Shown: positions 36,781 through 54,514 of the stretch, in pieces | Numbering within the stretch: the first letter of the stretch is position 1 | Layout of the letters: every line of letters starts with the position of its first letter | Origin: Flavobacteriales bacterium | GTDB taxonomy: Bacteria; Bacteroidota; Bacteroidia; UBA10329 | Reading direction: 5' to 3' | DNA: 64,000 bases | Assembly: GCA_021739695.1 (NCBI GenBank) | Contig: JAIPBM010000018.1 | Coordinates: forward strand, 1 to 64,000 | The notes under the pieces: model-generated | The model's database searches: none | Seen by the model: the letters and a program-made list of their open reading frames with translations, nothing else | What the model was told of the DNA's origin: nothing | Position numbers and translations under genes: made by a program

Positions 36781-37776
36781 ATGGCCAAAAAGAAATTTGG
36801 AAAAGAAACTTATCTGAACTGGTACGAAGAAATGCTGCTTTGGCGCAAGTTCGAGGAGAAAGCAGGTCAGCTATACATTCAGCAGAAAATCCGTGGATTC
36901 TGTCACTTGTATATTGGTCAAGAAGCGGTGTTAGCCGGAAGTGTGGAAGCGACCGAAGAAGGCGATAAGTTTATCACTGCGTATCGCGATCACGTACATC
37001 CAATTGCTCTGGGCGTGCCGGCCAAGAACATCATGGCCGAACTTTTCGGCAAGAAAACCGGCATCGTAAAAGGCAAAGGTGGATCGATGCACATGTTCTC
37101 AAAAGAGAAGCATTTCTTTGGCGGTCATGGTATTGTTGGTGGTCAGATTCCATTGGGAGCTGGAATTGCTTTTGCTGATAAATACCGTGGTGAAAAGCAC
37201 GTAACACTTACTTACATGGGCGATGGTGCCGTGCGTCAAGGTGCGTTCCACGAAGCCTTGAACATGGCAATGACCTGGAAACTTCCGGTCATTTTCATTA
37301 TTGAAAACAACAATTACGCAATGGGAACCTCCGTAGAACGGACTTCGAACGTAAGCGACCTTTACAAATTGGGCCATGCCTACGAAATGCCCAGCGAAGC
37401 CGTGGATGGAATGAGCGTTGAAGCGGTTTACGAAGCGGTAAAAAAAGCTGCCGACCGTGCTCGTAAGGGCGATGGACCTACATTGCTAGAGATGAAAACC
37501 TATCGGTATAAAGGTCATTCGATGTCTGATCCGGCCAAGTATAGAACCAAAGAAGAGGTTGAGAATTACAAGAAACAAGATCCGATTCAGCAAGTTCTGG
37601 ATGTGATTATCAAAAACAAATTTGCATCAGACGAAGAGTTGGAAGCAATCAATGAACGTGTGAAAGACGAAGTGGAAGAATGCGTAAAATTCAGTGAAGA
37701 ATCTGCATTTCCGGAAGCATCAGAGTTGTACGAGGATGTTTATACGCAGGCAGATTATCCGTTCATTAGAGAGTAA
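36781..37776 (+). CDS. pdhA: Pyruvate dehydrogenase E1 component, alpha subunit
   Basis: 331 residues. The thiamine diphosphate motif is GDGAVRQGAFHEALNMAMTWKLPVIFIIENN; other family marks are HLYIGQEAV, GGSMHMFSKE, GHGIVGGQIPLGAG and YRYKGHSMSDPAKYR. With the beta subunit (not in this window) it decarboxylates pyruvate and passes acetyl to E2. The E2 gene pdhC lies downstream, separated by an inserted four-helix-bundle gene. Confidence 0.95.
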   Translation: MAKKKFGKETYLNWYEEMLLWRKFEEKAGQLYIQQKIRGFCHLYIGQEAVLAGSVEATEEGDKFITAYRDHVHPIALGVPAKNIMAELFGKKTGIVKGKGGSMHMFSKEKHFFGGHGIVGGQIPLGAGIAFADKYRGEKHVTLTYMGDGAVRQGAFHEALNMAMTWKLPVIFIIENNNYAMGTSVERTSNVSDLYKLGHAYEMPSEAVDGMSVEAVYEAVKKAADRARKGDGPTLLEMKTYRYKGHSMSDPAKYRTKEEVENYKKQDPIQQVLDVIIKNKFASDEELEAINERVKDEVEECVKFSEESAFPEASELYEDVYTQADYPFIRE

Positions 37777-37779
37777 TTA

Positions 37780-37809
37780 AGTCGTAAGGCATAAGTGATA
37801 AGTAGTAAG
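37780..37809. repeat. Left inverted repeat of the four-helix-bundle unit
   Basis: AGTCGTAAGG followed by two more runs of the type ATAAGT-GATAAGTAGTAAG; pairs with 38211-38240 at 23 of 30 positions. Confidence 0.65.
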
Positions 37810-37811
37810 AA

Positions 37812-38165
37812 ATGGCCATCCAGAAGTTCGAGGACATTATTGCTTGGCAAAAAGCACAGGATTTAGCTGTTGATGTCTATGAAACCTTTCGAGACATTAA
37901 GGATTTCAGTTTTAGAGACCAGATTTGTCGTGCGGCAGTTTCAATATCCAATAATGTTGCTGAAGGCTTTGATAGAAGTTCAGATGCAGACTTCTCGCGC
38001 TTTCTGTACTTTTCAATCGCTTCATGCAGTGAAGTTCGGTCGATGACCTACTTAGCAGAAAAACTTGGATACATATCTGAAGAAAAACAAACACAGCTAC
38101 TAAAACAATCTCAAGAAATATCGAAAATCCTTCGAGGATTGATAAAATCGATCAATAAGCATTAA
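37812..38165 (+). CDS. Four-helix-bundle protein (S23 / 23S rRNA intervening-sequence family)
   Basis: 117 residues. KFEDIIAWQKAQDLAVDVYETF, FSFRDQICRAAVSISNNVAEGF and FLYFSIASCSEVRSMTYLAEKLGYI are the conserved marks of the S23/IVS four-helix-bundle family, first known from insertions in 23S rRNA genes of spirochaetes and related to Avd of diversity-generating retroelements. The biochemical role is unknown. Here it lies in a protein operon, flanked by inverted repeats, with its ATG only 3 bases after the left repeat. Confidence 0.88.
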   Translation: MAIQKFEDIIAWQKAQDLAVDVYETFRDIKDFSFRDQICRAAVSISNNVAEGFDRSSDADFSRFLYFSIASCSEVRSMTYLAEKLGYISEEKQTQLLKQSQEISKILRGLIKSINKH

Positions 38166-38210
38166 TGTCAATAATCATGACAAAATTGAATTCAACGTTG
38201 CGTTTTATGG

Positions 38211-38240
38211 CTTACGCCTTATTCCTTAAACCTAACGACT
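38211..38240. repeat. Right inverted repeat of the four-helix-bundle unit
   Basis: CTTACGCCTTATTCC then TTAAACCTAACGACT; reverse complement matches 37780-37809 at 23 of 30 positions. The pdhC ATG follows 6 bases later. Confidence 0.65.
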
Positions 38241-38245
38241 AAAAA

Positions 38246-39505
38246 ATGGCAGAAGTGATAAGAATGCCCAAATTGAGCGACACCATGACTGAAGGCGTGG
38301 TGGCTGAATGGCATAAGAAAGTAGGCGATCAGGTTTCTTCGGGCGAGTTATTGGCCGAGATTGAATCGGACAAAGCCACAATGGAGTTCGAATCGTTCTT
38401 TGATGGTGTGCTTCTGTACATAGGGGTTCAAAAAGGAAAAGCGGCTGTGGTCGATTCCATCTTAGCCATTTTGGGCGAGAAGGGAGAAGATATTTCGGAG
38501 TTACTCAATACAGAATCGAAACCAAAACCCGCAGCTGAGGATAAAAAAGAGGAAAAGAAAAGCGAAGAGCCGAAACAGCTGACAGAGGAGAAACCTCAGC
38601 AAAAAGCAGCACCAATCGCTGCTCAAAAACCTTCCACAGTTACTCAATTCTCTTCGAACGGACGTGTAATTGCATCGCCATTGGCCAAAAGGCTAGCTAC
38701 AGACAAGGGAATTGACATCAATTTAGTACCAGGTTCTGGAGATGGCGGAAGAGTTGTCAGGAGAGATATTGAAGCCTTTCAACTTCACGGTCCTTCTGCT
38801 GTCAATGCTGTCGAAAGCTTTCATGATGAAGAAGTTTCGCAGATGCGAAAAACCATTGCGCGAAGATTGGCTGAGAGTAAGTTCACTGCTCCGCATTTCT
38901 ACTTGACAATGAAAATTGATATGGACTCGATGATGGATGCCCGCGATTCCATTAATAGCGTTTCCAAAGTCAAAATTTCATTTAACGACCTCGTCATCAA
39001 GGCATGTGCAGTGGCACTGAAACAACATCCTCAGGTGAATGCTGCTTGGATGGGTGATTACATCCGTTATAATCAACACGTTCATATTGGGGTTGCGGTT
39101 GCAATTCCAGATGGATTACTTGTTCCAGTGGTGCGATTTGCTGATACAAAACGACTTAGCGAAATCTCCAGTGAAGTGAAGGATTTTGTGCTTCGCGCCA
39201 ACGATAAGAAACTTCAGCCTGCCGATTGGCAAGGAAATACCTTCACCGTTTCCAATCTTGGTATGTTCGGAATTGACGAGTTCACAGCCATCATCAATCC
39301 ACCAGATAGTTGCATCATGGCAGTTGGCGGCATCGAAGAAGTTCCTGTGGTCAAAAACGGCCAAATCGTTCCAGGGAATGTGATGAAAGTGACACTTTCG
39401 TGCGATCATCGAGTAGTTGATGGTGCTTCTGGTGCCAAATTCCTGCAAGCCTTCAAAAAATTGATGGAAAATCCGGTGTTGCTGCTGGGTTCATATTCGA
39501 TTTAA
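38246..39505 (+). CDS. pdhC: Dihydrolipoamide acetyltransferase (pyruvate dehydrogenase E2)
   Basis: 419 residues. One lipoyl domain (1-78) carries the lipoylated lysine in ESDKATMEFESF; a lysine/glutamate/proline linker follows; the E1/E3-binding domain is SPLAKRLATDKGIDI with GSGDGGRVVRRDIE (about 137-175); the catalytic domain ends with DHRVVDGASGAKFLQAF, which has the active-site His and Asp. It transfers acetyl to CoA. The name pdhC follows Bacteroidota usage. Confidence 0.94.
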   Translation: MAEVIRMPKLSDTMTEGVVAEWHKKVGDQVSSGELLAEIESDKATMEFESFFDGVLLYIGVQKGKAAVVDSILAILGEKGEDISELLNTESKPKPAAEDKKEEKKSEEPKQLTEEKPQQKAAPIAAQKPSTVTQFSSNGRVIASPLAKRLATDKGIDINLVPGSGDGGRVVRRDIEAFQLHGPSAVNAVESFHDEEVSQMRKTIARRLAESKFTAPHFYLTMKIDMDSMMDARDSINSVSKVKISFNDLVIKACAVALKQHPQVNAAWMGDYIRYNQHVHIGVAVAIPDGLLVPVVRFADTKRLSEISSEVKDFVLRANDKKLQPADWQGNTFTVSNLGMFGIDEFTAIINPPDSCIMAVGGIEEVPVVKNGQIVPGNVMKVTLSCDHRVVDGASGAKFLQAFKKLMENPVLLLGSYSI

Positions 39506-47908: not shown

Positions 47909-47949
47909 GTAATTATTAATTGAGAATGACGAATTAATAATTAGAAAAC

Positions 47950-53597: not shown

Positions 53598-54514
53598 GCC
53601 TCGGCTGTCCTTAACAGTTGCATGAAAACGTTCTCAATTCCGACCGTTGCATCGTGCGCCACAAGGTCATCGAAGCCTTGATCGCGCATGTCTTTTTCGA
53701 TGGGTTTCCAATCCGTTTCACCTTCAATCAATGTGGCATTCAAGTACTCGCCAAAGGCATAGCAACTCTCCACTTTCGGGTGATTGCGAAGTGCGGTCAG
53801 CAGCTCATACATGCGGTGGCTTTTCATGGCCACGAGCGTACCTTTGAATTCCTCATTGATGCTCTCGGGCGATGCAATACTGAGGATCTCGCCTTTCTGA
53901 ATGAGCGCGATACGGTCGCAAAGCGCAGCCTCGTCCATGTAAGGCGTGCTCACGAGAATGGCGATGCCTTCCAGCTTCAAGCGTTTCAGCATTTGCCAGA
54001 ATTCCTTGCGACTTACGGGGTCAACGCCTGTTGTCGGCTCATCCAAAAAGAGTACTTCAGGTTTGTGGATGAGCGCGCAGCACAACGCCAATTTCTGCTT
54101 CATTCCACCGCTCAATTTTCCAGCAGGACGATCCTTGAATGGCTCCAATTGAACGTAAATATCCTTCACCAATTCGTAATTGGCTTCGATGGTCGTCCCG
54201 AAAATGGTGGCGAAAAACTCGAGATTTTCCTCAACGGTCAAATCCTGATAAAGGGAAAACCTACCTGGCATGTAACCGATGCGATTGCGGATGTCGCGGA
54301 AGTCGTTTACCGTATCCAAACCCATCACTTCGGCCTTTCCGTCATCTGCCAGAAGAAGTGTGGTCAGAATTCGAAACAGCGTGCTTTTCCCCGAACCATC
54401 TGGACCGATAAGTCCGAACAGTTCGCCTTGCTGCACGTCAAAGCTGATGCCTTTCAGTGCCTGCACGTTCCCGTACGACTTGCTCAGGTTTTGTATGGAA
54501 ATGGCGGGGCTCAA
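53594..54514 (-). CDS. ABC transporter ATP-binding protein (other half of a YbhF-like pair)
   Basis: 306 residues from TTG 54514 (SPAISIQNLSKSYG). The open frame continues to ATG 54553 and 54583, but these starts lie inside a palindromic repeat, so the true start is uncertain. Walker A GPDGSGKSTLF, signature LSGGMKQKLAL, Walker B VLFLDEPTTGVDP; the histidine switch reads STPYMDEAALCD, so Pro replaces the usual His. One full and one altered site in the pair suggest unequal ATP sites. Confidence 0.88.
   Translation of the reverse strand: MSPAISIQNLSKSYGNVQALKGISFDVQQGELFGLIGPDGSGKSTLFRILTTLLLADDGKAEVMGLDTVNDFRDIRNRIGYMPGRFSLYQDLTVEENLEFFATIFGTTIEANYELVKDIYVQLEPFKDRPAGKLSGGMKQKLALCCALIHKPEVLFLDEPTTGVDPVSRKEFWQMLKRLKLEGIAILVSTPYMDEAALCDRIALIQKGEILSIASPESINEEFKGTLVAMKSHRMYELLTALRNHPKVESCYAFGEYLNATLIEGETDWKPIEKDMRDQGFDDLVAHDATVGIENVFMQLLRTAEA

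Follow-up and report, generated by a model that had tools for sequence, protein, structure and literature searches.

An S23-family gene between inverted heptamer arrays at the pdhA-pdhC junction: a probable mobile intercistronic cassette without a transposase

Why does a gene for a small four-helix-bundle protein lie between pdhA and pdhC in a Flavobacteriales genome, tightly enclosed by inverted repeats? The question arose from a sequence-only reading of a stretch of 64,000 nucleotides (the window), which described a single S23/IVS-family gene between 30-nt inverted ends and proposed a minimal gene-plus-repeat unit able to settle in transcribed places. The anatomy it described is confirmed. 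The end at 37780-37809 and the reverse complement of 38211-38240 are identical at 23 of 30 positions, the borders with the pdhA stop codon and the pdhC ATG lie where they were claimed to lie, and the sole gene within the unit belongs to the S23/IVS family (Table 1). The inverted repeat is longer than first noted, with 33 nt on each side (37777-37809 and 38211-38243, 76% match), and the right-hand array begins further inside, at 38205. What had been overlooked is that both arms are arrays of a 7-nt word. The left arm reads TAAGTCG, TAAGGCA, TAAGTGA and TAAGTAG, and the right arm is of the same type in inverted orientation. At the threshold used, the left arm is the sole such heptamer array in the 64 kb window. 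In a close relative of this unit (locus L100, 1-231), about 18 TAAGTCG words make up a nearly perfect left-arm array, and the right arm is short.

Table 1. Features of the pdhA-pdhC region in the window
Feature	Position	Strand	Basis
pdhA, pyruvate dehydrogenase E1 alpha, upstream cistron	36781..37776	+	PF00676 and TIGR03182 over cut-off; stop TAA 37774-37776
Left arm, degenerate heptamer array TTAAGTCG TAAGGCA TAAGTGA TAAGTAG TAAG	37777..37809	+	inverted repeat I1; lag-7 identity 20/28
S23/IVP-family gene, four-helix bundle, 117 aa	37812..38165	+	PF05635 E 1.3e-32; TIGR02436; model pLDDT 96
Right arm, inverted heptamer array; reverse complement TTTAGTCG TTAGGTT TAAGGAA TAAGGCG TAAGCCATAA	38205..38243	+	inverted repeats I1-I3; lag-7 periodicity 18/28
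pdhC, dihydrolipoamide acetyltransferase, downstream cistron	38246..39505	+	TIGR01349 over cut-off

Taken singly, the end match of the pdh unit is just moderately beyond chance, with P 0.0014 against Markov-resampled flanks and P 0.0018 against random window places with the same spacing; the family-wide test secures it. Among the 54 window genes, the S23 gene included, the flank score has a mean of 9.7, and the S23 gene shows the best flank match. The second-best gene (47950, ExbD) was rejected as an S23 locus, since it is not an S23 gene.

At the exbB-exbD junction of the window (47911-47942), the space from the exbB stop to the exbD ATG is taken up by a short hairpin built of heptamer-like words (TAATTATTAATTGAG..GAATTAATAATTAG, fold z -3.0), and no S23 gene is present. 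This hairpin may be the remnant of an S23-type unit that has no gene left.

The S23 gene product scores 112.7 bits against PF05635 (curated cut-off 33.8). Its structure model is a four-helix bundle that matches 2GSC (Z 19.8) and 2RLD (Z 17.7). The next matches are to the Avd subunit of reverse-transcriptase complexes from diversity-generating retroelements (DGRs), with Z 14.8 to 8UB7 and 14.6 to 4DWL at 11-12% structural identity, and Avd is also detected by sequence (PHROG 3206). The S23 entries 2GSC and 2RLD contain five chains each, and the Xanthomonas protein has been described as a homopentamer (PMC4990558). S23 genes are present in 90 of 118 sampled Bacteroidota. A phage origin of the unit was rejected, with 0 matches in 50,697 phage records, as was membership in a defence system, with no PADLOC match. 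Locus L107 has an S23 unit flanked by an Avd-like gene on one side and a reverse-transcriptase gene on the other, in what appears to be a DGR operon.

Matching inverted ends are present at most other S23-family genes. We defined the arms as the best local alignment within 150 nt of the S23 gene, and compared each left flank with the reverse complement of its own right flank or with those of other loci. The mean is 17.4 against 9.5 across loci for 65 Bacteroidota loci, 18.8 against 10.1 for 78 named loci, and 18.0 against 9.8 for a merged set of 232 distinct units from many phyla. In the merged set, 167 units reach at least the 95th percentile of cross pairs and 113 at least the 99th; the arms of about 28% do not go beyond the cross-locus 95th percentile. 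Outside Bacteroidota, paired arms are found in Thiohalocapsa, Desulfobia, Acidobacteria, Nitrospirae, Omnitrophota, Phycisphaerales, Clostridia and Oscillospiraceae, with the caveat that most of the genomes are drafts or MAGs and that the taxonomic label of some is in doubt (locus L186, labeled 'Limnohabitans', looks flavobacterial). The units on cyanobacterial plasmids have arm heptamers such as GGGAACA, GGGAGTA, GGGTGTA and AGGTGAC.

The 7-nt period is likewise a property of the family. The autocorrelation of S23 flanks peaks at lags 7, 14 and 21, and lag 7 scores highest in 44 of 65 left flanks and 35 of 65 right flanks, compared with 23 of 260 coding controls. Octamer arms form a minority, and the modal count of heptamers is 5 in the left arm and 5-6 in the right. 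Only this inverted-array form is general. The expectation that AGTCGTTAGG-like ends would recur in other units failed: the heptamer word is specific to each unit lineage, and AGTCGTTAGG was rejected as a general shared terminal sequence because the words differ between copies. Within one unit, the word is common to both arms. The host genome has 12 S23 genes, nearly all of them with inverted arms and with a different word each time (TTAGGTG, CGAGTTG, GTCGATA, GAAATTC, ACGATTA and others).

The units occupy a consistent position in operons. Among 218 units with both neighbors read, 182 are in sense with both, 13 run against both, and 23 lie at mixed junctions. On the left, the arm begins at the stop codon of the upstream cistron (median -2 nt); on the right, it stops short of the downstream ATG by a median of 5 nt. 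For 40 of the 232 units, another unit is located less than 3 kb away, and runs occur at successive junctions of one operon, with three S23 units in a row at G000:C2:45-49 kb. Certain junctions recur across the phylum, among them fadJ-fadA (23 units), thiolase-acyl-CoA dehydrogenase (19 units), nuoC-nuoD, sufB-sufC, sdhA-sdhB, hisA-hisF and metH, as judged by gene names read from translations. On the poorly resolved S23 tree, the fadJ-fadA units need 14 changes, of which at least 2 are forced by well-supported branches, so that different S23 lineages have reached this same junction. With short conserved motifs as probe, no 23S rRNA context was found for the fetched S23 loci.

On cyanobacterial plasmids (loci L215, L218 and L220), S23 units lie within CRISPR operons, twice as cas6-S23-cas4 and also as cmr2-S23-cmr3. 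Earlier work had noted S23 genes in the cmr2-cmr3 interval and close to cas4/cas6, and listed their function as unexplained (PMC3936711). We find the same arms at the S23 genes in these CRISPR contexts.

A unit able to move should leave junctions with and without it, and the pdhA-pdhC junction is cleanly empty in 6 of 9 genomes of the genus. It is filled in G000, G004 and G008, while the six other congeners have 1-10 nt from stop to ATG. The S23 identity between filled junctions (73-75%, and 90% for G004-G008) tracks that of pdhC (73-75%, and 88.5%). Because the S23 divergence follows the host genes, the pdh copy is old and the empty sites may be losses. The pdh tree on its own needs two changes, and the simplest reading of these comparisons would be one old insertion followed by clean losses. 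A recent acquisition of the unit by horizontal transfer out of the G004/G008 lineage was rejected, since S23 divergence equals pdhC divergence.

At hisA-hisF, G000 and G005 carry a unit, and the site is empty in G008 and G002. Where the unit is present, its left arm takes the place of the HisA tail and supplies the HisA stop. At paaJ-paaY in one flavobacterial genus, the site is empty in G073, carries unit A in G034, G062, G108 and G077, and carries unit B in G046; the S23 protein of unit B is 51% identical to that of unit A, and the arms are different. No near-identical pair of empty and filled sites was found, and the empty sites of pdhA-pdhC, hisA-hisF and paaJ-paaY are too diverged to give base-exact borders at which a target-site duplication would show. 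In another context of G004 (locus L212), a heptamer array CAATCGTAAATCGGCAATCGTTATTCG is present just ahead of hisF.

We further compared the arms of units at unrelated junctions. Where the S23 proteins are less than 55% identical, arm similarity is 10.5-11.1 against a background of 10.2. It is 12.4 at 55-65% identity, 18.6 at 65-80% (n=32) and 25.2 at 80% or above (n=3), in unit pairs that are phylogenetically non-independent. Unrelated units of one genome stay at 10.8, so genome composition does not explain the shared words. S23 genes at least 65% identical at unrelated sites have common arm words, and therefore the arms travel with the gene. In one example pair inspected by eye, the unit lies one junction over in the same operon (marR-S23-fadJ versus fadJ-S23-fadA). 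No recent transposition was seen, and different-site pairs with at least 80% S23 identity number only 3. The clean empty sites and the matching inverted ends elsewhere are comparative evidence that supports the gene-plus-repeat unit of the sequence-only reading as a mobile one, and neither of the two outcomes which that reading had named as contrary to it was obtained.

Once in place, the gene and its arms evolve differently. S23 genes at orthologous sites have a dN/dS (omega) of 0.03-0.13, like their neighbors. These ratios indicate that the S23 protein is under strong purifying selection and does something that selection sees. Differences per site are 0.15 in the arms, 0.13-0.24 in spacers and 0.26 at fourfold sites; special conservation of the arms was rejected, as their drift about equals that of the adjacent spacer. 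In the predicted RNA fold, the two arms pair around the S23 gene (z -2.3), and a stem in the transcript is possible. That the stem is maintained is unsupported. The arm mismatches comprise 184 of the G.U+U.G type versus 222 of the A.C+C.A type, with no G.U preference, and orthologous units show 137 one-sided pair breaks versus 14 compensatory changes. Neither measure supports selection for an RNA stem. Because the arms drift without compensatory or G.U-keeping changes, their complementarity is best read as a mark of how units arise or move, and not as a stem that every host maintains.

These counts weigh directly on the proposal of a messenger intervening sequence with a maintained RNase III stem, where the transcript would be cut in the stem, the unit RNA discarded and the cistrons uncoupled. 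Such an element predicts more G.U than A.C mismatches and is at odds with the excess of one-sided breaks. It gains from the predicted pairing of the arms and from an anatomy like that of the Coxiella IVS, which RNase III cuts at the first heptamer (PMC4990558), but we regard it as distinctly improbable. Alternatively, the unit may be a host regulatory module, in which the S23 pentamer binds heptamers in the operon mRNA, one per subunit in a TRAP-like manner, and tunes the translation or processing of the neighbors; the unit would be kept for this service and spread by ordinary gene transfer. TRAP itself binds repeated triplets. The purifying selection on the protein is strong over long times, the arms overlap the region ahead of the downstream start codon, the modal heptamer counts stand beside the five chains of the solved relatives, and units are found repeatedly at certain junctions, among them fadJ-fadA and thiolase-acyl-CoA dehydrogenase. 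However, the arms drift about as fast as the adjacent spacer with no compensatory or G.U-keeping changes, the unit is freely missing from the same operon in relatives, and S23 proteins are not strongly basic (net charge median +1.5, window copy -1). We consider a regulatory module unlikely.

On the other hand, the heptamer arrays could be independent simple repeats of the STRR kind that spread by slippage and recombination, with S23 genes merely landing in or near them. This is hard to reconcile with arrays that form inverted pairs around a gene, share one word between both arms, and carry a word that follows the S23 lineage between unrelated sites. Host arrays are also concentrated at S23 genes. 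An unbiased sample of 857 kb from the host genome contains 10 heptamer arrays and 8 S23 genes. Five of the arrays are no more than 250 nt away from an S23 gene, compared with 0 of 27 control arrays of period 6 or 9 in the same sequence; of the five that remain, two consist of simple A/T-rich sequence, and one, placed at the next junction, has the same word as a nearby S23 unit. Arrays lacking an S23 gene do exist, in prmC, at G000:C7:17850-17886, and in Cyanobacteria and Beggiatoaceae (PMC4679880), yet we find this explanation very unlikely.

The prmC array (L307/L308, G000:C20 about 54050-54100; L309-L311) is in frame and located just ahead of the SNPPY motif. At this position, arrays of equal length are present in four species of the genus, each with a different word, and two further species lack an array. 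The G000 array uses the word of the pdh unit, with no S23 gene detected at this locus; a reversed control pattern also gives 1 match. The array on C7 (L264, 17850-17886) is a solo arm at the next downstream intercistronic junction, with the word of the S23 unit C7:16095 (30/33).

Several known systems resemble the S23 units in part. The 23S rRNA IVS with an S23 ORF (Coxiella, Leptospira) has, like them, inverted terminal repeats of about 28-33 nt, a variable number of heptamers just before the ORF, a total length of about 430-470 nt and a patchy occurrence. In Coxiella, the IVS carries an S23 ORF and a terminal stem of 28 bp that RNase III cuts; just ahead of the ORF it has 3-4 tandem heptamers GACAGAT, whose copy number varies between strains (PMC4990558). 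CPR bacteria also have IVP ORFs, located in insertions within 16S and 23S (PMC11270868). In contrast, the units described here lie between protein-coding cistrons, in many copies per genome, each with its own word. The pdh unit shows the complementary ends and the pre-ORF heptamers of an IVS. It is not classed as an rRNA IVS, because it lies between pdhA and pdhC outside any rRNA and its excision by RNase III without religation is only a prediction, though its anatomy is the same, set between cistrons.

Avd shares the fold and a detectable sequence similarity with the S23 protein, whereas the pdh unit has no reverse transcriptase, template or variable repeat inside. The STRR of Cyanobacteria and the TAACTGA repeats of Beggiatoaceae are also degenerate 7-nt units, intergenic and often just before a start codon. 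Heptamer arrays ahead of start codons have been described in Beggiatoaceae, Cyanobacteria and Bacteroidetes with no evident spread mechanism (PMC4679880). The STRR and Beggiatoaceae repeats are described as direct and with no associated gene (PMC4679880), whereas S23 units have inverted pairs around one. Insertion sequences and MITEs share inverted ends, clean empty sites and multiple copies with the S23 units, but the latter have no transposase and no conservation of ends between copies, and are intercistronic and nearly always in sense. The pdh unit differs from them in the same way, as the PF05635 gene is the only one inside it and the terminal words differ within the genome. Our searches of open-licence papers turned up no description of S23 units with heptamer arms between cistrons, and none that joins rRNA IVSs, heptamer repeats and intra-operon S23 genes.

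On balance, we favor the view that the S23 unit is probably a transposase-less mobile intercistronic cassette, whose mode of movement we infer from comparison. The cassette would consist of one S23-family gene between two inverted heptamer arrays, with a word belonging to the unit lineage. It would settle sense-wise in the gap between operon cistrons, its left arm abutting the stop codon of one cistron and its right arm finishing shortly before the start codon of the next, so that both neighbors stay translatable. Gene and arms move jointly, as the comparison of unrelated sites shows. A settled unit would be inherited for a long time, its protein under purifying selection and its arms drifting; occasionally it would disappear cleanly, or a different unit would take over its junction. 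Because its anatomy is that of the 23S rRNA IVS, the S23 unit is best described as an IVS-type element that resides in messenger RNA genes. We speculate that the S23 pentamer, a relative of Avd, recognizes its own heptamer arms, and that movement proceeds via RNA or depends on this arm recognition. The strong purifying selection suggests a cellular role, which a purely selfish element would not need. A broader proposal, which we put forward tentatively and with some doubt, is that S23 units form a cross-phylum class of transposase-less mobile elements, in which an Avd-like pentamer recognizes or helps write the heptamer arrays, and that the repeats of Cyanobacteria, Beggiatoaceae and rRNA IVSs are arms or solo traces of this class.

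S23 genes, hundreds of which are annotated in genomes only as 'four helix bundle protein', thus gain a consistent genomic anatomy, that of a sense cassette whose two heptamer arms lie where one operon gene stops and the next one starts. For annotation, this is a warning that an S23 gene inside an operon says nothing on the function of that operon. Our findings link three unexplained things, namely rRNA intervening sequences, heptanucleotide repeats and intra-operon S23 genes, including those in cas operons (PMC3936711), and make both the mobility of S23 units and the role of their protein directly testable.
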